A stretch of DNA of 64,000 nt from Styela clava (lineage: Eukaryota; Chordata; Ascidiacea; Stolidobranchia; Styelidae), in NCBI RefSeq assembly GCF_964204865.1, contig NC_135262.1, positions 11,408,001-11,472,000 on the forward strand, written 5' to 3'. The position numbers and the translations under genes were made by a program. Shown here piece after piece: positions 93 to 57,701 of this stretch (positions are counted from its first letter, which is position 1; every line of letters begins with the position of its first letter). The notes under the pieces are model-generated. The model saw nothing but the letters and a program-made list of their open reading frames with translations, was not told the origin of the DNA and did not search any database.

Positions 93-3000
93 TTCGTATA
101 GTAAGCGGCAATGGAATAAATGAAGGAAGAGTAGAAATATACCACGGAGAAATATGGGGAACAATATGCGATGATGGTTGGGATATTAAAGATGCGGAAG
201 TTGTGTGTAGAATGATGGGATTTCCCGAAGCAAAGTCTGCTCCTGTTCGAGCTTATTATGGGAAAGGGGTTGGTCAAATATGGCTGAGTAGCGTCTCTTG
301 CTCAGGGGATGAACAAAGGTTGGAAAATTGCAATCACGGTTCTTGGGGATCACATCATTGCAGCCATGATGAAGATGCTTCCGTGCATTGTCTTCCTACA
401 GGTTAGTAGGCGAATTAAGTATATAGAAAATAAATTGAATGTCCTGTAAAATTTGGGTTCTCGATATCGAATGAAACTAGAATTAAAATGAATCAATGTC
501 GGTTGTCTAATGCGCTGATAAGCGGGAAAATAACTAATATATATTTGTAAAATGCTAATCGAGAACAACCTGATGATATTCCAGATTCGTAAGTTTGAAA
601 TATTTTTTAATATTTATAAATACTTATTACAACTAGGTTTGGGATTTCACGACCAGTTTTTGAAATCCCGCTATCGGGATATCCCGGGATTTTTCGGGAT
701 TGAGTAAAAGATTGAAACAACTTGCATGACAATAAAATCGCGTATTTATTTCATGTAATATCGGCGCAGAAATATTAAAGAATCTATCAGTAATCAGTAA
801 GTTTATTCTTCACCATACTAAAAATAGGCACAAACATACAAATTGCGATAAATTATAAATAGGCCGTATTTCAGGGCGGAGGAGACTCGGGAAACCAATA
901 CTGGTTATCGAGCACCGGCACGCAAAAATTAAGTCTAATACTATATTATGAAGAAGAAAAAGTCGAACTAAGTATAATTATGTAAATTGAAAAAAATCTA
1001 GGTTGTGGTTCCCAACCTTTTTTATATCGCGGCACACTATTTAGCTCTTTCAATTTTCGCGGCACACCTATCACAAAACACGAACATTATCCATTCATAA
1101 AGAGTGCGATAGTCCAACGCGAACAAATGGTTAATAGTTACCGATATTCCAAAGTTTTCTTACATTAGAGTAAACGAGAGCGTCTTCGGAGCACCTCACA
1201 TTATTGAAAAAGTCGCGCGACCTCACGGGTAATACGTGGTCGTCTTCAAACGCACCGCCGATCAGGCGCTTCGGTTTTGCTCGCCAGTTCCACGTTACGC
1301 CCTTATTATTATCACACGTATTCTCACTTTTTCACAACCCAATTCAATTTTGTTACAATTCCATACGTTTCTCCCATTGCCAAAATCGTTCAATAGTGTG
1401 AGTGTCTGCTATTGCGAGATAATTGAAAGAGGCAAAACAAACTGTATTTTATAACAACAATTAATTATTATCGTTAAAAACACGAAATAGGTTTGAAGTT
1501 GTTATAAACAATTTTCACCGCTGGATGTATCTTTTTACGTTATGAATTTCGTGCAAGGCCCGAGCATAAATTGATGTCAAATATCATTTACTATGTCGAA
1601 AGGCTTATTCGACTTTTCAAACCGCAGAAACTATCCAAAAAAGATACCCGTTTTGGTGTTCAAGATATGAAATAATCGTCAATTCCACCACGATTTCGCG
1701 AAGTAGTGCAATTTACTAAAATTAATGAAGGTTTTATTAAGTTTGATTGCATCAGTGTTTGGATTACCACGCGTTTCGCCGGATTACTGGCATAGTAACA
1801 TATCGCAAGGGTGTGGAAAATATGGTATTTCCCGGCGAATAAGTCTACCCGGTAAATAGGACGAGGCCCGTTTTTAAGCCTGAAAAAATGGGTTTTAGCA
1901 TATAACCTGCCAATAAGTTGGGGTAGTGAAATCGCATCAACATCGGAATCTCAAATTACCATGCAATGCCTTTTTAGCGGTCGCCGCGTTCGCGCATTGG
2001 TTAAAATAGCCTTTAATGACATTTTCTTGTAGCGTAATAATTAATCCATAATAGCTATGGGAATTCAAACTGTCTTTAAATTTGAATTTAATTGTGTTCA
2101 ACTCGCGATTGCGTCCACCATAAAAGAACATTACCTGATACATAATGAGGCGACACCAAAAAAATGAAAATTATCATACTCGACTAATAAGACGACCCCC
2201 CCCCCCCCTCCAAAAAAAAAATCAGGCCAAAAATTTGGTCTAGAAACGCCATTTTTCAGGCTTAAAAACGGGCCTCGTCTTATTTACCGGGTAGATTTAT
2301 TCGCCGGGAAATACGGTAGTATATTTTTTTCGAATCAAATAATTTTAACGAATTGTCGAATATCGGGTTGAACTCGGGATTTTATTCCAATTTTTATCTT
2401 TTGGGTTGGCTTTGATCTTCCTTGCCACCGTTTGTAAATTTACTGTCCCAATTTTAAGCTAAAAATATTATCATTTCTGACGCCGGAATGCGGATATTTA
2501 TGAAGACGATAGTTGACCTTCTGGATTTTACTTTTCTATTGTGGCTGTTTTATTTTCGTATTCAACAGTGAATGAAAACAATGCAAAGTCATTGCGTGAA
2601 GCCGTGAATCCTGAATGCTATTTTGAGTTCAAATTATGCTTAAATAGGTCGGCAACAATGACAATTCTACTAGTCGAATAATAATTTCTTTGTAAAATTT
2701 GAGAAAAATTTTGCACATTAATTCCACTTAGTCTGACTTACTCAAACTGTAAGCGTGGACGGTTTTTTTCTCAAAATAAGTATTAAATAAAATGGTATAA
2801 CCCAGGGCTACTCAATTATTTTTACCTAAGATTCGCATACACAACTTCGAAAATATTTCAGTCCGGTCTTTCCAGAAATTATATTTCGGCATCTTGAACA
2901 CGCACTTTTTTGGCCGACTAGTGATTATTAGCTAATCAAGATTGTTTATTATGGCGTTATAGTTATTTTCATATATATTTAAATCTATAAAAGTGATTTT

Positions 3001-6000
3001 ATAAAAAGAAACTTTAAAAATGAGGCTAATGAAACAAAAAAAAGAATTAGGCGCAGTCCGAATCGAATACCCGAAAGGTCCGGATTCGGACCGCGGTCCG
3101 CCAGTTGAGTAGGCCTGGTATAACCTATCATTTGTTAAAATATCTATATGTGGATAACGCTCTTGTGTTTGCATTGAGATGGCTCCACAAATTACTGGTG
3201 TTTTTCTATTTTAAATCAGCAGAACCTTGACTTAAAGGTGGTTTATCACGCGAGCATTTTTGTGGAAAATTTGAATCTTTATAATTTTTTAGGATTTTTG
3301 ACGTTTACCACTTGCATAAAGTGGGCTTAGTCTCTACTTACGAATTTTCAAAAACCGCTTCAGCGAAAATTTACTGCAGTTCGGAAATGGCCTTTGATGA
3401 CGTAGTATTGAGAACTCATTCCAGAATGTGCATTTATCGCCCATTGGCGAGTGAGGTGTTTAATTTGCTTTGAGCGTTTAAATCTAGTTTCTCATAGCGT
3501 AGTAAAGATTGAAACAATAATGTATTGTTAAACACAAATGTTAATGCATGAGAAGTTCTGACTGTAAGCCACGGCGTTTTAAGCAATGATCGTACCGCTA
3601 CTGAACGTCCGCCGAAAGGCTTTGAAGAACTGATTCTAGAGTAAGTGTTTACCACTATTGTATGAACCAAATAAAATTGGTACATTTACCAAAAGAGTAA
3701 TAGTTTACCAGATAAACGTAGAATCCCAATAATGTCGCCTTATTAGTTTCCGCTTTGATGGGGTGTTAAAATGGGTTATTTTGTATTGTGCCGTTGGCTG
3801 TACGTATAGACAACGAAATGGATCTTCACTTATATTCCATTGTTTTCAAAAGACCCGGAACGTCGCACAAGGTGGATATCATCTATTGGGAGGACTGGTT
3901 GGTGTCCCAGCCATCTCGCTGGTGTTTGTGGACAGCACTTCGTAGGTGGTGGGTGATGATGTGTCGTTATTGATTTTTTTTAAGTATTCATAAGCCTCGT
4001 CATTTTAAATCACAGATATAAAACCCGGAAACTTTTGGATCCTTGGAATTGAATTGGGAATTATGCTGATCTTGTTGTTAATTCCCATGTGCATGTATAG
4101 AGGTTCATTACGTGAGTAATAACTATAAATACCAGCCTAATATAAATGTGTTTGATGTCATTGTAAACATAAGTATATCTTTACAAAAATTACTAAAGAC
4201 GGTAATAACAGGTCTTCTTCCACAAACAATTTAGGTTAGAACCATTGGCACGTCTCGGGTATGGCTGCCATTGCCAGTGCAGTTGGCACCGTTTGAACTA
4301 GGGTTAGTTCGGATACCTATAATTCATACTATCCGGATAACGGATATATCCGGGTATTTCGTATTTTAACTATCCGGTTAACCGGATAGTTACTGCTAAC
4401 TTCAGAAAACCGATTTCACAAGATTTTTGCGGCGAATTGACTAAAAACCACCACACAATTTTATTGTAAATACGTACATATGTATTATTTAGCTCGAATA
4501 AAAATGATTGTGCATTTTGATGTTGCATGTGTCAATAAATAAAAATTTGAGCTCTGTAATCGTACAAAAGTACATCTGAATAATATAATGGAACATTTTT
4601 TTAAATACTGTGTCCTAGTTGTCTTTCCCTCGACTGCTAAGTCATTTTCTCATATTCGAATCCTTTGTCAAAATTTATATTATTATTTTTTTTATTGTTA
4701 AATTTTTTGGAATTTATTTTTGTGTCTTGAGCATATTTCATTTAAATTTTGACTCGTACTAGATTTTGGTGTCGCAGACTTACGATGACCATTTCTTTAA
4801 GCTTTTAAGTTCAATTAGTTTAGAATAGATTTATTTCGGCTGGTATATCTATTGATTCGGTTGATACATAGAAATTTGAAAATACATATATACCAAAGTT
4901 AAAAGCAAGCACATAACATTTGGTCGTGTACTCAAAATTTTGAAATGCTACACAGATTACACGGAATCGGAAGTGTTGTGAAATAAGTCCTCAAAATTCA
5001 AACTGGTTTACATCATGATGAAATGCGTTCCTTCAATACACGCAACAACTAAAAGCCACACCTGACGAAAAAGCAACAAACTCACACCCACCCAACCAAT
5101 GCTTTTCAACTGAATTCGTTTAAGTTGGTCTTGCTTAAACTGTACCTCCAGTTCAAATCTAACTTTATAAAGCAAATGAGCTCTTCTAATAAGCGCAGAA
5201 TTCACATTTGTTCTGCGTGTTTTGTGATGTAATAGTGAAGTTCACTCCAGCATTCTACGGATGGCTAAAATATAGGCAGATTAGAGTGGAAAGAGTTGTT
5301 ATTATATGCTCTGGGAGATGTCAGTCGCCACTCAACAAAAAATATAAAAATCGCTAATGCGCATATGCATTATTCATACTTCTTCATTATCCGGTTAACC
5401 GTCACAATAATATCCGGATATCAGATAGCAAAATACCTCTCGGTTAACCGGTTATCCGGTTAACCGCTATCCGGATAATCCAACCCTAGTTTGAACAGGG
5501 GCCTAGAAGATGAAAAATCTCAATCGTAAAATGTTTCAATAAAATAATTTAAGAAAACGGAATGATTGAAACTTGTTTTTTACTTAATAATACCGTATAA
5601 GTATCTAATTTCAACAAAAGTCGTTATAAATTGTTAGTCAACGGCCAAGGGGGCGCATTTTCAAACTTAGCCATGGGCGCAATTTTACGTAGATACGCTA
5701 CTGGTTAGAATTGAGTTCTTATGATATGTATTCCAAATAAGTATATAACTTACCCACTACATCAGCTCCGTCCATTTCATTTGCTCAAGTTGTGTCGTTT
5801 TTGCTATTTTCAATGTGTATGTTGCTATTACTGCAATAGTATAGCCCATACTATTTGATTAATAATTGTGCACTGTCAGATACTTTACCAATCATCTTTT
5901 TCAGAGAAATTGCTCATGGATATTGTTGAAACTACTTGTGATGGTACGTAAGATTTTCTTTTGTTTCAGTATGCAAATGTAGTGAAACATCTGGAAAATG

Positions 6001-7255
6001 TGGGTGTCAAAATGAACGTTCTGCGTTATTAAATGTCATTTAACGTTTATACAACATGTGGTACAGTATCTTTTTTGCTGCCTTGCGAGTGGAATTATGA
6101 AATTCTCTTCCAAAACTGTATTCAAACTTACACGGCAGATGTTATTACATTTGTTTTTATACTTTCAGGTTTGATATTTTGCCTATGCTACCATACAGAA
6201 CTTATAAAGCTTGCTGTAAGAGTAAGATTCATTGAATTATTGATATTTCATTACCTTGTCAGTGCTAGAATTTAGCCTTTATTTCTATCATTCTCAATAC
6301 AGCCTACTGTACTGTCCTTTAATTCACTACCAGCAATGTCAAGGTATCTATGTTCATTATTCCCAATAGGTCATTGGGAGTTTATGCGATAGATCCACAA
6401 TATCGTCTTCAGTAATGAACAATGTGTTGTGGAGTTTCCTTCCTTAACTAAAGTGCTTCACAGATTCTATAGTTACATTATACGATTTAACAGAAGACGA
6501 TAATCGAGTCAATTTGATTCCTGCGCAACCACGACAGCTGACACGTGCATCCACGGCATCAGAAATGAACATTGACCATGTGTATTGTGAGTATGAAGTT
6601 AGAAATGACCTTCAATGAAATATCGAGTAGTGATACCAGGGGAGTAGCCAGAAATTTTTAAATGGGTGTTCTGAAATTTTTAATTGCTAAGTTGGACCGC
6701 CCCTGACTGATTCTTTGATTTTTTTTCGTGAAAATACCAATGTAGAGCGATCAATTTCTTCTGAATTTAAATTTTGAAATTTATTCCGATCCCTTTTCTT
6801 TTATACGCCAACCAAGTTGAATGTAATATTTGTTACAATCTTATTTTTCAGAAATTTTACTTTACATATAAATAAATCATGAATTGTTTAATTGTCTGTT
6901 TTTATTGAATCTGATCTCAAATAATTTTGTAATTCAGATATCCAACCAAGTCGAGAACCGGTAGCATCCTCGGCTCCACCTGTAACAAACAATACTCAGG
7001 GTATGGAATAATAAATATTTCAATCGAAGTATTTTCAATTCTACATGCTTTCTGTAATAGTTGTTGCTAATAGTTTGCTTTTCAGAAATTTCAGAAGACA
7101 GACTTTGTGTTATCTGTCTATCAGAAGAAAAGAATGTTTTCTTTGGGCCTTGTGGTCACGTGTCTTGTTATAATGACTGCCGAATGAGGAGTGATGTAAC
7201 AGATTGTCCGGTTTGCAGAAAAAAAATTGAGCAACGACAAAGAACATTTTTATGA
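93..7255 (+). CDS. SRCR-transmembrane-RING receptor (5' end outside window)
   Basis: Phase-1 exons at 93-401, 4016-4111, 5905-5943, 6464-6586, 6938-7000 and 7086-7255 (stop) join in one open frame. An optional exon lies at 5970-6043. Exon 93-401 is one whole SRCR domain, with the WGTICDDGW and VVCRMMGF motifs and closing Cys residues. Exon 4016-4111 encodes a roughly 20-residue hydrophobic helix followed by an Arg-containing stop-transfer stretch. The middle exons encode an acidic, then Pro/Ser-rich, linker. The last exon is a RING finger of the IAP/MUL1 kind: CVIC, then PCGHVSCYNDC, then CPVCRKKI. This predicts a surface receptor whose cytoplasmic tail is an E3 ubiquitin ligase module. SRCR domains bind ligands and RINGs recruit E2 enzymes (family knowledge). 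The H-x2-C-x3-C spacing is slightly unusual. The single-gene model is inferred from phases; two adjacent genes remain possible. More SRCR exons probably lie upstream. Confidence 0.68.
1823..2318. mobile_element. TIR/foldback MITE with about 70-bp inverted ends
   Basis: The left end (GGTATTTCCCGGCGAATAAG, then an arm ending in AAGCCTGAAAAAATGG) is mirrored at the right end (CCATTTTTCAGGCTTAAAAA... to CGCCGGGAAATACGG). The arms match over about 70 bp with few differences. The outer bases suggest a TA target. The middle contains a run of 13 C (2196-2208) followed by an A tract. No transposase is visible, so the element is non-autonomous. Confidence 0.8.
2803..3117 (-). mobile_element. Non-autonomous hAT element, family 1 (copy A)
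   Basis: The ends read CAGGGCTACTCAATT and AGTTGAGTAGGCCTG and are inverted repeats of each other. The element is flanked by a perfect 8-bp target duplication, GTATAACC (2795-2802 and 3118-3125), the hallmark of hAT transposition. A second copy in the opposite orientation is at 53384-53690. Internal sequence is shared, including the segment TCCAGAAATTATATTTCGGC. It lies in an intron of the SRCR gene. Confidence 0.88.
3775..3945 (+). pseudogene. THAP zinc-finger fragment with a frameshift
   Basis: One frame reads YCAVGCTYRQRNGSSLIFHCF. A shift of one base near 3846 continues it as KDPERRTRWISSIGRTGW and ends with VCGQHF. Together these show the C2CH layout of a THAP domain: Cys-x4-Cys, the KDP-x-R and W motifs, then Cys-x2-His-Phe. 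THAP fingers are found in P-element-like transposases and in chromatin proteins. The frameshift and the surrounding repeat-filled intron suggest a transposon relic rather than a gene. Confidence 0.6.
4299..5488. mobile_element. 1190-bp non-autonomous hAT-like element, family 2
   Basis: The ends are TAGGGTTAGTTCGGAT and ATCCGGATAATCCAACCCTA. A perfect 8-bp duplication, GTTTGAAC, flanks the element at 4291-4298 and 5489-5496. Subterminal zones at both ends (4326-4392 and 5389-5478) are packed with CCGGTTAACCGG and ATCCGGAT palindromes, probably transposase binding sites. No transposase frame survives. It sits in the intron between the TM exon and the tail exons of the SRCR-RING gene. Confidence 0.87.
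5970..6043 (+). CDS. Optional exon giving a RING-less tail of the SRCR receptor
   Basis: The acceptor TTTCAG at 5964-5969 opens an exon in phase 1 with the preceding exon 5905-5943. It encodes a short Cys-rich tail (VCKCSETSGKCGCQNERS) and then a TAA at 6041-6043. If it is included, the receptor ends here without its RING. If it is skipped, 5943 joins 6464 in frame. A weak internal phase-1 donor (after GAAC, near 6018) could also rescue the frame. This is an inference from splice phases only. Confidence 0.35.
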
Positions 7256-7449: not shown

Positions 7450-7455
7450 AATAAA
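7450..7455 (+). terminator. Poly(A) signal of the SRCR-RING gene
   Basis: An AATAAA hexamer lies about 195 bp after the RING stop codon. It is the first canonical signal downstream. Confidence 0.45.
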
Positions 7456-13800: not shown

Positions 13801-16800
13801 TTTGTGCACGGCAACGTTTCACATACTATCAGCATGATTTGCAGGAGTAGTTACATACAAATATAAAGATATAATAATGAACAACAGACGTTCGAACCGG
13901 CCTGAGAAATAGACCTCATTATGGCGAAATACCAGATTTTCTGTTACAATATTAAAATTTTAAAGGTTGGATGGTCTGAACACGCTGTACGAAATGGGGA
14001 TCTATGTGAACGACTTGACATTCCACGATTTGAGTAGAGACTTGGTATTGCATGGACCTCAACAAACAACTGAATACAAGTTGGCATTGGACCTGGAACA
14101 AGTATATACTATTTATAAATAGTTTTAACATGATAAATATAATTTTTATTTTATTAATACTAGAAATTTCGTAATTAATATGATGTAGTTGCCATAGCGA
14201 GATAGCTGAGACATGGCTTAAACTCTATCAACGTTTTTCAGGGAAAGAAAACGAGATTAGAGGAGATGATTGAAACGTTGGGAACCGAAAGACGAAGAAC
14301 AGATGACCTTCTATATAGCATGATACCAAAAAAGATTGCAACCAGTCTACGACATGGAAATACGACTGTTAGTTTATGCGAGGTAAATTTACACATACAT
14401 CACCATTACGAGGATTTCAAAATGAGAGTCCTATTTGTAAAAAAAATCATTCAATTCATTCACTTAAAAGTCTTGCCCCACTCTCAAACTAGATTCATTT
14501 AGTTATCACAAACTAACCTGTGTACATATTTATTTTGCAGAAATATGACGACGTTACTGTTCTTTTCAGCGACATTGTTAACTTTGCCTGCATATCAAAG
14601 CATATCGCACCTCACGAGATTATGATTATACTCAACATGATGGTAAGTCGAGCACACGTGATTTGAACAAGATAGACTTCATATAAATGTCGTCGGCTTA
14701 ATTTGAGTAAACGCTACATAAGAATTTTTGTTCACTAAAACGTCCAGTGTGTACAGCCAGGTAGACGACAACATTATAAAATCTATTCTATCCAATTAAA
14801 GAGTCTCTGTAACGTTTCGTCCGACCAAAGTCGAACTTCCTCAGACAAGCAGTTTACAACAATTATAAAAGCTGTTCGGTAAACCAGATACTTTGTTTTT
14901 CCTGCAATATTCCTACCGTGTTTCCCCGAAAATAAGACACTGTCTTTTTTCAATCTTCTCTCAGAAAATAACACTAGGGCTTATTTTGGGGGGATGTCTT
15001 TTATTTTTATTTATTAAAAACAAAATTACAAAGTGGAGAATTACGAGATTTTCAAATATACAAATTACGAAAACCGATATTCAATTACTTATAAATAACA
15101 CGTTTTTATTTGAAATAACTGCCAATCATAGATTATTAATCATTTTAAACGAGCAGTAAAGATTTCTTGCTATCGACTAGGTCTTATTTTAAGGGGTCTT
15201 ATATTAAAATCATTTTTAAAATTCAGGCTATGTCTCATTGTCGGGATAGGTCTTATTTTCCGGGAAACACGGTGGCACCGACCTACTCAGGTCCATTGAC
15301 ATTGGTTATATCGCAGTCTCAACAAAATTCGGTCTTATAAGTACTTTATTTCGACATATCGCTCACCATAACATTAAGCACCGGTATTGATGCTAGTGAC
15401 AGACTCTCCACTAAATAATCATTTGCCTGATTCTCATCACATAGAAGCGGGTTGTGCAGCCTTTACTTCAGGAGGGCCAGATACAAATAACTGGGTGAAA
15501 CCACGGGCCGTATCGAATTTAAAATAGGCCTAGTAGTTGCAGACACCAAGTAGTTGCAAACACAAATATTATGGGTATTGATCTTATGACATACGTTGTT
15601 CGCTTCGCACAAGCTAGCTGTTAGGGCATTGTAATGTCTTGGGCATAGATAATAAATTGGATGCAATGCAAAAGGATTTGGATTACTCGCATTTACCAGA
15701 TTAAACTGAATTCAATCGCGGGACGCACACCATTCAAAATTGGCACTTCTTCGCGCGTCACACAATTTTGTTCCTTTATGTGTCAGTGTTTGCGACATTT
15801 GCCTAATTCAAGTATTACTGCTTTTACACAATAATATTTAACAACTTGCCGGTTGAAATCATGAATGCTAACGTACTCTTAGATTATTCAAATTAGATGG
15901 ACGAATGCGTTACCTATAAAAGTCGATGCATTTTTTCGATATCGTACTAATTTTTCAACAATGCAGTTGATTTGGCACTTCCACACTATCCTAATTAAAG
16001 CTAATTATGTGTTGTTTTCTAAGGTCAGCGTCTTTGACATCTTATGTGACAAGTTTGATATATACAAAGTGGAAACTATTGCCGATGGATTCATGGCAGT
16101 ATCTGGTGCCCCCACCTACAATAAATACCACGCTCGTAATATGGCTGACATGGCGTTTGAGATGCTGAAAGGAATAAAAACTGTCAAAGATCCAAACACT
16201 CGTGATCCTATTGAAATACGTATAGGTAAACAACCATTTTAGAAGTCTATTTCAGATTTTGTTTAATATATATATATATATACAAAGATCGGACAATTGT
16301 AATATTTTTCAGGACTCCACTGTGGTGATGTAATTGCGGGACTTGTTGGACACAAAATTCCACGATATTGCTTGTTTGGAAATACAGTCAACATAGCATC
16401 TAAAATGGAAGCTACGGGAGAGGTATTTTTACTGAAGTTTATTTGCTACCAATTAATACGTACGCATGCGTTTATATTGCCACTGAGAATATATATTCAA
16501 GTTCAATTTTTCTTGGAAAATACTAACTACAAATAATATAGTAATTTAAACTTTGAAAATTGGTATATTTATAACCACTATACTGAAACGGAGGTCATAG
16601 GCAACAACGAACTCTAATATTCCAACTTCACACCTCCGCTTTTAATTATGACTGGGCGATAAAGTAACTTATGTGTAGGTAACCATCAAAGCCAGGAGAA
16701 AAGGCTTATCGATTTAGCGAACTTTACGCAATTCCTTATACCCAAAGTAGTATGGTACTTGAGATCTTTTACCAGCAGTTCAATATAGTTAAGCCAGACC

Positions 16801-47701: not shown

Positions 47702-47839
47702 AGAGCTGTCATATATTTTTGTAATTTTGAAGGAGTCCACCATATGAAATGTAAAATTCAATATTGAAATTTCAATATTATTAATATATTGTGTCTACTA
47801 TATGAATTATATACAGATTGTGCATAGTTATATTGTAAT

Positions 47840-50800
47840 ATGACTGGAGAGTCGACTTCAACATCTATCAAGCCTCGGGAAAAGTGGCGAAGTAAAGTTG
47901 ACTTCTTTTTTGGGTTAGCTGGTGGATCAGTCGGACTTGGAAATGTATGGAGATTTCCATATCTTTGTTACAAAAATGGAGGAGGTAAATATAGAAACAA
48001 TCTAAGAAATCGTTTCTACTGTCGGAAACAAAAATCTTTTTGTGTGTTAACTATACGCATTTCTGCTAATGAATTCATACTCAACACTATAATGACAGCG
48101 CATGAACTTTAGGTACTTGCTAGAAACCATGGTAGAGAGTACTCATGATGACAGGTTTGCGGTTTTCGACATTGACTTGAAGAAATTCTTTTCTACCGAT
48201 TAAACAGCGGAGCAGTTCTAAACGTATTTCAACACAGTTTGAAAATCAACTAAATTGATAGTGTGCTTGTGACGTATATATTTCACAAAATTATCAATGG
48301 AAATTTAGTCACCTTAATCCTTCAATTAGTTGAAAATTTTAGACAACCAATTGCTATGAACATTATACAGTCGCTGGCTTTGAATATTGGATTAAGTTAG
48401 GACAGGTTTTGCTTATTATGTTCGAAGGCACCGTTACTTGATAAAACGTGATAAACTTTATATAAATGTATGTTACATAAAAGGTAGGACTAGAACTAAA
48501 AAACCAGGTTCTTTGAAACATTATTCTTGAAACCATGTACATTTGCCACTTTGCTACATGGGAGATAAGTGAATAAAAACAATTATCGGTACAATACATA
48601 GGCGATACATGGCAATATAATTCATTAATAGACCACGAGAGTTCTATACAAAACTAATTGGCATTCGTGGGGTTTGGTTTAGCTATGCAAAATCGTCTCT
48701 TGTAACCATCATCAGCTGTTTTAACATTTAATTTTGGTCGCGGGTAGAGCCGTTGTGGTGCAATAATTAAATTACAAACGTTATGTGAATATATGTATAT
48801 CGATATATGGAAGTTTCCGCAATATTCCAATTAAGCGTGTGCCACAGGTAGCCTAAGATTCGGGGAGTCCTCTGTATGCAAGTCATATATGAATGTTGAT
48901 AAGTTTTATGATCATATTGCCTTGTTACCTCGACCAAAAACGGTTGAGCAACCACACATTTCGAAATTCCAATCCCCAAGTGTGTTGGTAAATACATGAA
49001 TGTAAATTGAACTGAATGTCTTCACTTTCAACCCGAACACTGAATTAACATGAAGCTAAAACAGTCAAATCTCTGATACAAGGTAAAATTGCATGCAATT
49101 CAATAAAACAAGTCCTCTGGCTATCTGTTATTTCACTTCTGTTTTTTTTTTTATAAATTTTTATACCAAACAGATTTTTGCTTTAGAAGTCTTTATAGTC
49201 ACAAGTTTGAAATCGAACCATTTTCGTGGTTAAGGATAAACCTAAAAATAAAGATCATACGTTCAAAATTCCGATTCTACTTGCCAGAAGCCACTTCAGT
49301 TATTTGTTTCGAACTCTGTGCCTCCCCCTGTTTATTTCCTTTCAAAATAATTTGTTTTTGATTTCATTCAGGTGCATTCCTCATTCCGTATTTGATATTT
49401 CTTCTGGTATCTGCTCTTCCAATTTTCTTCTTGGAGGTCACTCTTGGTCAATTTACAAGCAGGGGTGTAGCAAGAGCTTGGGAAATGGTACCAATTATGA
49501 AAGGTAATATGTTCAAAATAGTTTTAAATGATCGAAGTGCACATAACTTTTTAATTCAAGTCTTTATTTTGCAGGTATTGGATATGCGTCAACAGTTATA
49601 ATCGTCAATTTGAATACTTACTACATGACTGTTCTAGCGTGGGGTCTTAGATATATGGTTGCCAGCTTTTCTGCAACTCTACCATGGTCAACCTGCGACA
49701 ATGAATGGAACACAGAAAACTGTTTTGATTTTGAGAATTGGAATAAGACTTCGAATTTGGGCAATCTTTCCACCACCCAAAGCCCATTGTACCCAACAGT
49801 AGAACCTGGCAACTGGATATCGACGACAGGAAATACAAGTAGCGGAAAAAATGAAAGTGTGCGCGTTTCTTCTGTCGTCGAGTTTTGGGAGTATGTTGGC
49901 TAGTGTGTCGAAGAAAGCAAATTTTTTTATTTGCTTTGCGAACAATAAAATAAAAATTTTAGGTTTTAAACTTGGTATTGGATACTGTACACATATAATT
50001 TTAGCTGCGTGTCTGACCATTACATTTGGTTTACATTTATTCTATTGTTTACACAATAAGCTTTTTTTGATAGCATAACCAACTATTTGAATTTGACAAA
50101 TTATACGCAAAAAGAATTTTGAGTTGGAAATCTTCCTCGAGTAATTGCATTTTGGAATAATAGCCGTAGTAATAGTTCTTATAGATATTATTAAAATAAT
50201 TTATCTGTTCTTTGTCAAATCTTTTCCACTAACGTTAGTTTCATCAATTTTTCACTTAAACAGGAGGGGAGTACTTGGACTTTCAAGTGGAGTTCACGAA
50301 TTGGGATCTGTTCAATGGGAACTATTGCTCTGCATGTTGGTCGGATGGATTGTTGTTTATTTCTGTATTTGGAGAGGCATCGCCTGGACAAGCAAAGTAA
50401 GAAAGGGGGTTATGTATTTTTTATTAATCAGTTCGGATCATTTAACTCCCGTGTCTCGAATCTCTTTTAAAATCTTGATCGATTTAACTCATTACGAATA
50501 ACCGTTTTTTTTAATATTAGGTGGTGTACTTCACCGCAACTTTTCCGCTTTTAATGCTGTTTATCCTGTTTGTTCGGGGGATAACACTGGACGGGGCAAT
50601 CGACGGAATCGAATTTTATCTTAAACCAAACGCAACTAAACTGAAAGAACCACAGGTATGTCATATTTATCAAGTTTACGCTGACCTCTGTATAATATTG
50701 CTAATGATATTATTAACGAGTCGTGGTCATAGTAAAAGCAAAAACACATAAGAAGAACACGTACGAAAAAATACAAAAATCTTCGATCCATAGAGTAGGT

Positions 50801-54469: not shown

Positions 54470-55960
54470 TTAAATGAAACAAATTCAAATCACCTCATAT
54501 ATTTATGATGAATCTGCCACAGTAATCATTACAGTTTACTGTGTAAATTAATGGTGAATCACCAGCATGACACTCAAAGATACAAAATATATAATAATAA
54601 AAACAAGAATAATTGACGTGCAGTTCAATACCTAATTTTCTTATACACACTGAATCAATAAATTTGCTATGCTTTCCTATATGCACGTGCAAACCAGCTA
54701 CGATACCATTAAAAATAAAGCAGTGAGCATTTTGTATTTGTGATAGAATAATTATTTTTGTAAGATTTAACTTATGAATACCTCCCATGCTGTTTACGAC
54801 CTTAATTGTTTGTAGTAAAATGCCGTGTATATTGGAATAATTGCTCTCTGATCAAACAGGATTTACAATGTGATAGCTAAGTTCTATTCAAATCTTCACC
54901 TTTTATTTGAAAAATGAAGAATATTAATCTAATAACGTCTTCCTGATTGATACCTTCTCAACTTTCGGGTATCTTTTCTGAAAAACACATCTGACTATCC
55001 ATGATCATAATGTCGCGTTGTATCGGAAATATTTTCAAATTTCCTACGTCAATACCCTTATTGTTGATCAAATAATTGTTTATTAGTTTGATATTGAAAT
55101 TCTAGCATGTTTTGTTACAGGACCTCGACTCCTTTGTTTCACCGAAGATAACTGTTCATTAGTAATTGTATCTGTGTAACTGAAGCCGTTGTTGATTTTC
55201 AATAAACCTATTTTTCATGATTTTTATTGTGGTTATTTACAATTGTGTGATATTGGAAATCAATACTGCAGCGGAGAACAATAGGCTTAATAAAATTACA
55301 AGGCTATACAGTAATTAATTACTGGCTTCGAATTTTATTGGAATTCATTTCAAAAAGACCCGAAAAAAACAGCCCATCTTTAACACGATGTGACGGATAA
55401 TATAACAACGCGACGTGTCTGTGGATCGTCAGAAGAAGTCGCAATGTCAAACTGACATGGCATAGTAAGGGTTTGTCTTATCATATGGGTGGTTGGTATC
55501 ACCTAATTTTTAAGCAAGTTTTATTTCAATTAATGATCTCGTGGACTGATTTTAGTATAAGAATCCCCGACTCGATGCAACGAAAGGGATGATTATTGTA
55601 TTCTAATAGTTTAAAAGCGAAGCCTCATTTAGTAAAAATTCGAAGATTAATAAAAAAGCTTGTCCAACACAAACATCGTCTCAGCTTAGGGTCTAAGTCT
55701 CTAAGACATGGAAGAAAACATTGTCTAATAAAATAAAGTGGTGAAAAAATTTTTGGGATCCATTTCTCTTACCGATTTATATTGCGACAGTCCAGATTAA
55801 TAATAGCGATTGGTGACGAGTAAAATTTGACACTTCACGAAAGAGCGTCTAGTTTCGCAGCAATATGAGTTAAGCTTCGATTATATATATACTTTCGATT
55901 CAGTATTTACAAGTTATGGTTCATATTAAGTACAACCAGCTAATTAAGGCCTAGAAAAAA
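54470..55960. other. Intergenic region between the SLC6 and lectin genes
   Basis: I see no gene. AATAAA at 55201-55206 could end the SLC6 transcript. A TATATATATA stretch at about 55882-55891, some 80 bp before the lectin ATG, could be its TATA box. Confidence 0.35.
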
Positions 55961-55967
55961 TAAAACC

Positions 55968-57701
55968 ATGCGACTGCTGCTGGTAGTTTTGCTATTTACT
56001 TTGCTCGTTGGAACTGGAAGTGAGGACCCAAATAAGTTTATGGTATGTAAAGAAATGGAGTCTGTTTTTAGCGACGAACACATTGCTGCATCTAATAGAA
56101 GAGGTGTGCAAGGACCTCCAGGGAAAAAGGGTCCTCCCGGAATAAAGGGTCAACGTGGACTTCCGGGTGTTGCTGGCCAATCAGATGAAGTGGACTACGA
56201 TCGCGTAGAGCAAATCGTCAAAGTTGCAATCAATTCAGGTTAATGTACAAAATATGAACATTGTATAGGCATATATACATACTTGTACATATATGTATGT
56301 CGCTTGTATTTATGCATATAAACGTTGAAATTTATATATTTTGAATGTAACGATTATGAATGATTTTTTTACCGAAGTTATATTATCATCATTATAAAAC
56401 TGTTCACAGAATTAGATTCAATCACTGAACGTTTACGATCAATAGAAAGAAGAATAACAAACATTACTCTTTTACCAGAATGTGAGTAAGAGTGTGCTTT
56501 ATATATATCTGCTAACGGAGCTCCCGAAGTATGTGCACCAAGATGGCACACAACTTGAACATAGTATGTGTACCAGGTTAGGGTTCAGGCTGTGCGCCAT
56601 CTTGGTGCACATACTTCGGGAGCTAACGAACGTTTGGTTGAATTTTTCTCAAGGTGTGGTTGCTCCTATAGCTATTTGGACGCGACATAATTCTCATATA
56701 AGTATATTAAAATCAAGTGTTGACAGTCAGGATTCGAGAATTTTTGTAGGGAAGAATATTCTACTGAAATCATAATGAAAAGTTTTTGAGAAAACAATAT
56801 CGACGCAATAATAAAAAAAAATGAAACCACATTCTAACCTTTTTGCTCTGTGATATTAAAAAAAAATAATATTTTGAAATAGAAATCTCATAAATTGATT
56901 TTTCTATTATGTAAGAAATTCATAAAAACCGTTTTTTTATCAGATTTACGGAGTTTATATTTTTTAGTGAAATGTGTTGCAATTAATGGAATGATGTACG
57001 ACGGAAAATGCTATTGGGTAGAAATAAGTTTTTCAATGAATACCAACATCCCCGAAGCTAAACAGATTTGTGAGAGAATTGACTCCAGATTGGCTGATCT
57101 TTACAGCAGAACACATTACGATAATCTAATGAAATATTTGAGAATGAAATTACCCGAAGGAAATTCTGATATGTTTGTGTGGACTGGGATGCAGAGAAAC
57201 TCGGTTTGTATCTCAACTTCTTTGTTTACTGCTGGTGAATGCCAAAAGTAACATGTTTTTCAAACAATGAATACGTAAATCAAAACGCTACATAATTTTC
57301 TTCTCCGATTCCCTTTTAAGTTGAAAAAAAAAATATATTCAGTGACAAAATAGTTTCTAAAACTCAATTGTCCGGTCCGAATGTGCTACCAAATTCTGCC
57401 GCTCCCAAATACCATTTATTAGACCAATATTTAATAGAACTTCAAATAACCTTAAGTAGTATATCGACGAAGCAAGATAATTGAATGTTTATTTTTCTAG
57501 GCAAGTCAAGCGACACTTTCAACTGGACAGTTGGCTCCTTACATAAAAGCAAGATCTGACAAAACGAAATGGGAAAATGCGGAAGCACCAAGAACACATG
57601 CATATTTACGCGTTTTACGTGACACGACGTCAACAGATCAAGGATTCGGGTCGATTTGGCCGTCATGGGAAGCCAATGGAGTGTTGTGTCAAACCCTTTA
57701 G
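55968..57701 (+). CDS. Collectin-like protein: signal peptide, collagen stretch, neck, C-type lectin-like domain
   Basis: Four exons (55968-56238, 56410-56481, 56968-57203, 57501-57701) join in frame to 259 residues. Residues 1-17 form a signal peptide (MRLLLVVLLFTLLVGTG). Cys27 could link chains. Residues 46-72 are nine Gly-x-y collagen triplets, and about 79-114 form a helical neck for trimerisation. The rest is a C-type lectin-like fold, with KCYW, PEAKQICERIDSRLADL and FVWTGM, ending in GVLCQTL. Collectins with this order bind microbial sugars and can trigger complement (family knowledge). Here no EPN/QPD or WND calcium-sugar motif is seen. Only one cysteine lies in the last exon, so the usual C2-C3 disulphide is missing, and sugar binding is doubtful. 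The exon 3 acceptor could instead be at 56943, adding eight residues. Confidence 0.88.
56518..56621. mobile_element. Foldback element, copy 3
   Basis: The left arm (CTCCCGAAGTATGTGCACCA, AGATGGCACACAAC) is mirrored by the right arm (GTGCGCCATCTTGGTGCACA, TACTTCGGGAG). A 7-bp direct repeat, GCTAACG, flanks it (56511-56517, 56622-56628) and may be the target duplication. It lies in intron 2 of the lectin gene. Confidence 0.87.

Follow-up and report, generated by a model that had tools for sequence, protein, structure and literature searches.

Do the first exons of this stretch of the Styela clava genome encode a membrane receptor with a ubiquitin ligase of its own? The stretch (the window, 64,000 nucleotides; C17:11408001-11472000, C17 being contig NC_135262.1 of assembly GCF_964204865.1) had been given a first-pass annotation in which six exons joined an SRCR domain to a transmembrane (TM) helix, a short linker and a C-terminal RING finger, the linkage being drawn from agreement in intron phase. 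In this study the 30 kb upstream of the window were also read, and genome searches covered 376.6 Mb. On C9, a GT2 and a GH6 domain stand about 2.1 kb from each other on one strand, which points to a tunicate, as animal cellulose synthase with GH6 is specific to that group. The exons are likely to be the 3' half of one type I membrane receptor gene with an SRCR ectodomain, a TM helix, a cytoplasmic linker of about 75 residues and, at the C-terminus, a RING that belongs to the dimeric IAP/MYLIP class, and a tandem twin of the same plan appears to lie upstream. The window gene is referred to below as copy B and its twin as copy A.

The window gene and its tandem twin

All six proposed phase-1 exons were recovered on the plus strand, with AG acceptors, GT donors and phase-1 introns throughout. 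They comprise an SRCR exon (93-401, phase 1-1), the TM exon (4016-4111, phase 1-1), the cytoplasmic linker exons t3 (5905-5943, phase 1-1), t4 (6464-6586) and t5 (6938-7000, Ser/Pro-rich), and an exon carrying the C-terminal C3HC4 RING and the stop codon (7086-7255). Joined, they give an open frame of 265 residues that ends at the TGA at 7253-7255, and a candidate polyadenylation signal (AATAAA, 7450-7455, plus strand) was recognized by eye about 195 bp 3' of the stop. In Pfam, the joined protein matched SRCR (PF00530; residues 4-99, 6.1e-32, 110.3 bits against a cut-off of 26.1) and zf-C3HC4_3 (PF13920; residues 213-259, 1.3e-11, 44.5 bits against a cut-off of 27), with zf-RING_2 scoring under its cut-off. 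The TM exon reached a best 19-residue Kyte-Doolittle mean of 2.51, while the rest of the modelled protein was everywhere below 1.6.

The SRCR exon at 93-401, previously taken as the opening exon, is instead the last SRCR exon of a longer gene, the model of which begins at C17:11401706, 6.3 kb before the window. This copy B model has 11 exons and 645 residues uninterrupted by a stop, and contains a candidate signal peptide, a Cys-rich module, four usable SRCRs, one TM helix, three linker exons and the C-terminal RING. Its tandem paralogue, copy A, lies approximately 20 kb upstream (C17:11381729-11393772), where 14 exons give 975 residues, also without a stop, with a candidate signal peptide, a Cys-rich module, seven SRCRs, a TM helix, three linker exons and a RING. 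Pfam recognized seven SRCR stretches in copy A and four in copy B, with one zf-C3HC4_3 match in each (3.1e-13 and 4.5e-11, respectively; 49.7 bits to PF13920 for the copy A RING). All introns of both models are phase 1. The candidate start exon occupies matching positions in the two copies, with an ATG, a hydrophobic stretch and a phase-1 GTAAGT, and SRCR places run upstream as far as C17:11384774. The N-terminal Cys-rich module (C17:11383167-11383313 in copy A and C17:11402429-11402572 in copy B) has no match in Pfam.

Each of the six window exons has a counterpart in copy A with identical junctions and phases. The SRCR exon (309 bp), the TM exon (96 bp), t3 (39 bp) and the RING exon (170 bp) are equal in length in the two copies, whereas t4 is 123 bp in the window and 114 bp in copy A, and t5 is 63 bp and 117 bp. 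The last SRCR exon of the window is 87% identical at the DNA level to SRCR exon c of copy A. The end of t3 together with t4 encodes DDSIVTLYDLTEDD, common to both copies, and the stretch DSIVTLYDLTEDD is shared between them. A chance agreement of phases is very unlikely because all six exons recur in copy A with the same junctions, and it was rejected on this ground. At the sequence level the exon linkage is confirmed, with the splicing predicted, and it is stronger than the first-pass annotation could have known; an SRCR-TM-RING product from a single gene is well supported by the conserved junctions, the full models and the frame-keeping tail.

When the TM, t4 and Cys-rich exons were used as genome queries, each returned two places among the matches listed, always the pair of copies A and B, although queries this short can miss diverged relatives. 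Against at least 81 SRCR places in the genome, two of the 47 IAP-type RING places have an SRCR place within 20 kb, and these are the same pair; the next nearest is 320 kb away.

Constraint and apparent wear in the window copy

The tail exons of the two copies differ in length by multiples of three only, with net changes of -9 in t4 (two gaps, of 8 and 1) and +54 in t5, both of which keep the frame. The introns could be aligned in five blocks totalling 1,144 aligned bases, which hold 139 mismatches along with 22 indels, and no indel had a length that was a multiple of three. In a neutral simulation that used this intron rate, the tail exons should gain about 10 indels, and net frame was kept by all five in 168 of 20,000 runs; with one further intron block and the 3' untranslated region (UTR) added, net frame in all tail exons was found in 157 of 20,000. 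Freedom from stops is a weaker test, as 7.7% of simulations passed it. The likelihood of linkage rests chiefly on the conserved junctions and less on the indel simulation.

Several observations weigh against the receptor reading, some of them specific to the window copy. Of the 12 indels found where the 3' UTRs were compared, 5 have lengths divisible by three, so that the indel pattern alone is no proof. The ratio of nonsynonymous to synonymous substitution (dN/dS) between the tails is 0.53 or 0.79, depending on the codon alignment, and the tail dN of 0.14-0.15 is close to the intron divergence of 0.12-0.16, indicating that amino-acid constraint on the tail is weak. The candidate signal peptide stays below 1.6 in the 19-residue hydropathy window. 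Within the ectodomain of copy B, Trp replaces the first conserved Cys of SRCR B2 and Arg replaces the last of SRCR B3, leaving five Cys in each, and a further SRCR exon (C17:11405246-11405370) is only 125 bp long, and its inclusion would break the frame. Finally, the RING of the window copy reads CGHVSCYNDC, in which zinc ligand 5 has changed from Cys to Tyr.

The marks of wear, namely the Cys to Tyr change in the RING, the lost SRCR cysteines and the broken exon, are absent from copy A, and the window copy may be partly worn out. Going further, it could be a decaying pseudogene of the upstream receptor, with the same architecture and no working protein. Each of these marks, confined as it is to copy B, favours such decay, and the 125-bp exon needs to be skipped for the frame to be kept. 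Nevertheless, we regard a pseudogene as unlikely: the 11 model exons contain no stop or frameshift, their AG/GT borders are intact, and the ectodomain dN/dS between the copies is 0.31. Moreover, skipping the broken exon keeps the frame because the flanking exons are phase 1-1, and symmetric phase-1 exons tolerate such skipping. The six conserved cysteines of group A SRCRs are present in 9 of the 11 SRCRs of the two models, including all six in the window exon and all seven SRCRs of copy A (the frame-broken exon is uncounted). Fast change of tail residues in a kept frame is a pattern as in relaxed or fast-evolving duplicates.

The RING finger and its link to the ectodomain

Amongst solved structures, the closest to the copy A RING are MYLIP (2.2e-10) and then cIAP2/BIRC3 (1.2e-9), and no gap interrupts the match between the last zinc pair and the terminal residues. 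The copy A sequence CPICRNRIEQRKRIFL aligns gap-free to BIRC2 CPICRGIIKGTVRTFL, and the window sequence CPVCRKKIEQRQRTFL was compared with them by eye. All eight zinc ligands are kept in copy A, which reads CGHVCCCNGC. The column holding Tyr in the window copy is a zinc ligand in XIAP-type RINGs, which fits the only Cys there that the aligned MYLIP and cIAP sequences share. Both copies show the marks of an IAP-type dimeric RING: the last Cys is followed by a linchpin Arg, and the C-terminal tail, which ends R-T-F-L in the window copy, contains Arg-x-Phe. In the parts of the cIAP1 work consulted (PMC6349121), Arg606 (the linchpin), Arg614 and Phe616 contact the donor ubiquitin, the latter two from the other protomer; by eye, Arg, Arg and Phe stand at the cIAP1 spacing in both copies.

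The loss of the ligand in the window copy was compared with other RINGs of the genome. Of the 47 places, 30 were taken up as loci (L013-L042), and from these 23 RINGs could be extracted, leaving out L029, L030, L031, L035, L037, L038 and L039. The spacing H-x3-C-x2-C was found in 21 of the 23, copy A included, and H-x2-C-x2-C in one; the remaining one, H-x2-C-x3-C, is the window copy, which is also the sole case of Tyr at ligand 5. Copy A fits the eight-ligand spacing C-x-H-x(2-3)-C-x2-C and the window copy departs from it. A neighbouring Cys might substitute in the window RING, yet the spacing there is abnormal. Three of the loci left out (L030, L031 and L038; C4:18219649-18224135) hold nearly identical RING exons, each seemingly cut short after CGHVCCC or CGHVWCC, and beside them is an apparently full copy at C4:18226225.

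A built-in E3 ligase, as the first-pass annotation had proposed for the window gene, is plausible for copy A, with its eight ligands, linchpin Arg and cIAP1-like R-x-F, and doubtful for the window copy, in which ligand 5 is Tyr. Copy A is probably the catalytic copy. With a RING zinc ligand lost and its ectodomain worn, the window copy is more likely to have weak activity, to serve as a decoy or regulatory partner, or to be in decay. Alternatively, the RING could have no ligase function and act instead in dimerisation or as a scaffold, through which receptors cluster or partners bind. The missing ligand of the window copy would agree with this, as would the dN/dS of 0.74 for the RING exon alone, although that value is drawn from just 3 synonymous and 9 nonsynonymous changes. 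A scaffold role is considered rather improbable in view of copy A, where the full set of ligands, the linchpin Arg and the R-x-F tail at cIAP1 spacing have all been retained.

It is very improbable that two adjacent genes are present, the first for an SRCR protein that is soluble or ends separately and the second small, independent and encoding a TM-RING or a cytosolic RING, with a coincidental match of phase. In favour of two genes, the SRCR-TM intron is long (3.6 kb, 402-4015), read-through of the SRCR donor hits a TAG at 404-406 and a Met stands at the end of the TM helix in both copies. Against them, the phase-1 acceptor of the TM exon is conserved in both copies, the order of SRCR array, TM and RING recurs in both and was found nowhere else in the searched genome, and a case of truly neighbouring genes on C14, described below, looks different. 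In a BLAST comparison at E up to 1e-8, copies A and B have no sequence in common within the SRCR-TM intron except in the last 12 bp ahead of the TM exon, and accordingly no alternative first exon shared by the two was seen. As far as the DNA tells, the RING exons do not begin from a promoter and ATG of their own. Two Met residues are common to the tails of both copies. The first, which closes the TM helix, is the only one that precedes the RING in frame, and a short cytosolic start at it may be possible; the second lies inside the RING.

With zf-RING_2 as the query, one of 49 places has an SRCR place within 20 kb, at 3.5 kb on C14 (the next nearest is at 130 kb). A second SRCR-RING family there was rejected, as the RING sits in a single open reading frame of 218 residues with its own ATG and stop. 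This protein (L057; C14:7400594-7401247, minus strand) combines the RING with a CCCH-like stretch, is makorin-like by eye, looks intronless and adjoins SRCR exons.

The rest of the window holds other coding pieces. Exons at 14206-16239 match parts of a soluble guanylate cyclase (HNOBA, 4.3e-9; Guanylate_cyc, 5.7e-15), an N-terminal piece of an SLC6-type transporter lies at 47828-48109 (SNF, 1.4e-15), and a short open reading frame at 55944-56240 starts with a hydrophobic stretch and carries collagen repeats (PF01391, 4.1e-5, under its cut-off).

Relation to known systems and possible role

The PA-TM-RING ligases (GRAIL/RNF128, RNF13 and Goliath) and ZNRF3/RNF43 have the type I plan of signal peptide, folded ectodomain, one TM helix and cytoplasmic RING. 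This is also the plan predicted for the two copies, each with a candidate signal exon at a matching place and one internal hydrophobic peak. The present receptor differs from PA-TM-RING ligases in having SRCRs in place of PA, a domain with no Pfam match in either model, and a C3HC4 RING of IAP/MYLIP type at the extreme C-terminus instead of a RING-H2. The IAP family and MYLIP/IDOL resemble it in RING sequence, in the very C-terminal position and, for IAPs, in the Arg-x-Phe tail; unlike them, it is predicted to span the membrane and has an ectodomain, and neither full model has a match to BIR or FERM in Pfam at E up to 0.001. By these domain tests the receptor is not a member of the PA-TM-RING, IAP or MYLIP families.

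The ectodomain resembles that of CD163/M130, CD6 and CD5, which combine tandem SRCRs with one TM helix, and CD163/M130 chains top the list of solved structures for the window SRCR. Known multi-SRCR membrane receptors have tails with phosphorylation or adaptor motifs, whereas the receptor described here has a RING tail; no known multi-SRCR member with a RING was found.

The first-pass annotation knew of no standard family that unites SRCR and RING, and the literature agrees: no SRCR-RING protein was found in the literature searched, which covered chiefly titles and the starts of abstracts, with supplementary domain tables outside. The main text of a study of 29 metazoans, as far as seen, never mentions RING, ubiquitin, Ciona or tunicate (PMC10855680). 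In the portions seen of a paper on amphioxus, SRCRs are described as pairing with a greater diversity of domains, and RING and ubiquitin are never mentioned, the table of domain combinations sitting in its supplement (PMC2575513). Sea cucumber SRCR proteins carry many other domains, and the zf-C3HC4_2 case reported there, in the part consulted, is a THAP protein (PMC13228809). Supplementary domain tables might already contain an SRCR-RING protein.

We read the receptor as a receptor-type E3 analogous to the PA-TM-RING ligases. The candidate signal peptide would direct secretion, placing the SRCRs outside and the RING in the cytoplasm, where the SRCRs may bind a microbial, self or matrix ligand. 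Clustering driven by the ligand could then pair the RINGs, and the C-terminal Arg-x-Phe tails of the paired RINGs would act in trans on E2~ubiquitin. The targets may be the receptor itself, leading to endocytosis and degradation of receptor and cargo, or its neighbours in the membrane.

Two further loci have RING exons of the receptor's type near other domains. At C10:10831501-10841500, on the minus strand, several fibronectin III-like exons stand in a row (one recognized in Pfam, fn3, 1.5e-9). Behind them come two short pieces that look like exons and then a C-terminal RING exon, whose acceptor is phase 1 by eye. No TM helix was seen between, and this is a possible second shuffled RING exon. 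At C4:16056001-16066000, two PDZ-like pieces (one in Pfam, PF00595, 1.9e-10) lie about 2-3 kb before a RING exon on the same strand, and are a candidate for linkage only.

SRCR receptors are a family of innate recognition that has expanded in several invertebrates, in which their signalling and cargo clearance are poorly known. It is possible, and proposed here tentatively, that tunicates evolved a receptor-type E3 in which SRCR arrays sense ligand and clustering switches on a dimeric IAP/MYLIP-type RING, with catalytic and RING-impaired twins that could work as a tunable pair. Such a receptor might have arisen by the capture of a portable phase-1 3'-terminal RING exon, perhaps also placed behind fibronectin III and PDZ exons. 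The tandem pair offers a ready comparison of an intact with a damaged RING. A receptor with its own ligase would unite recognition and degradation, of itself or of its neighbours, in a single molecule and would be nature's equivalent of engineered receptor-degrading chimeras.

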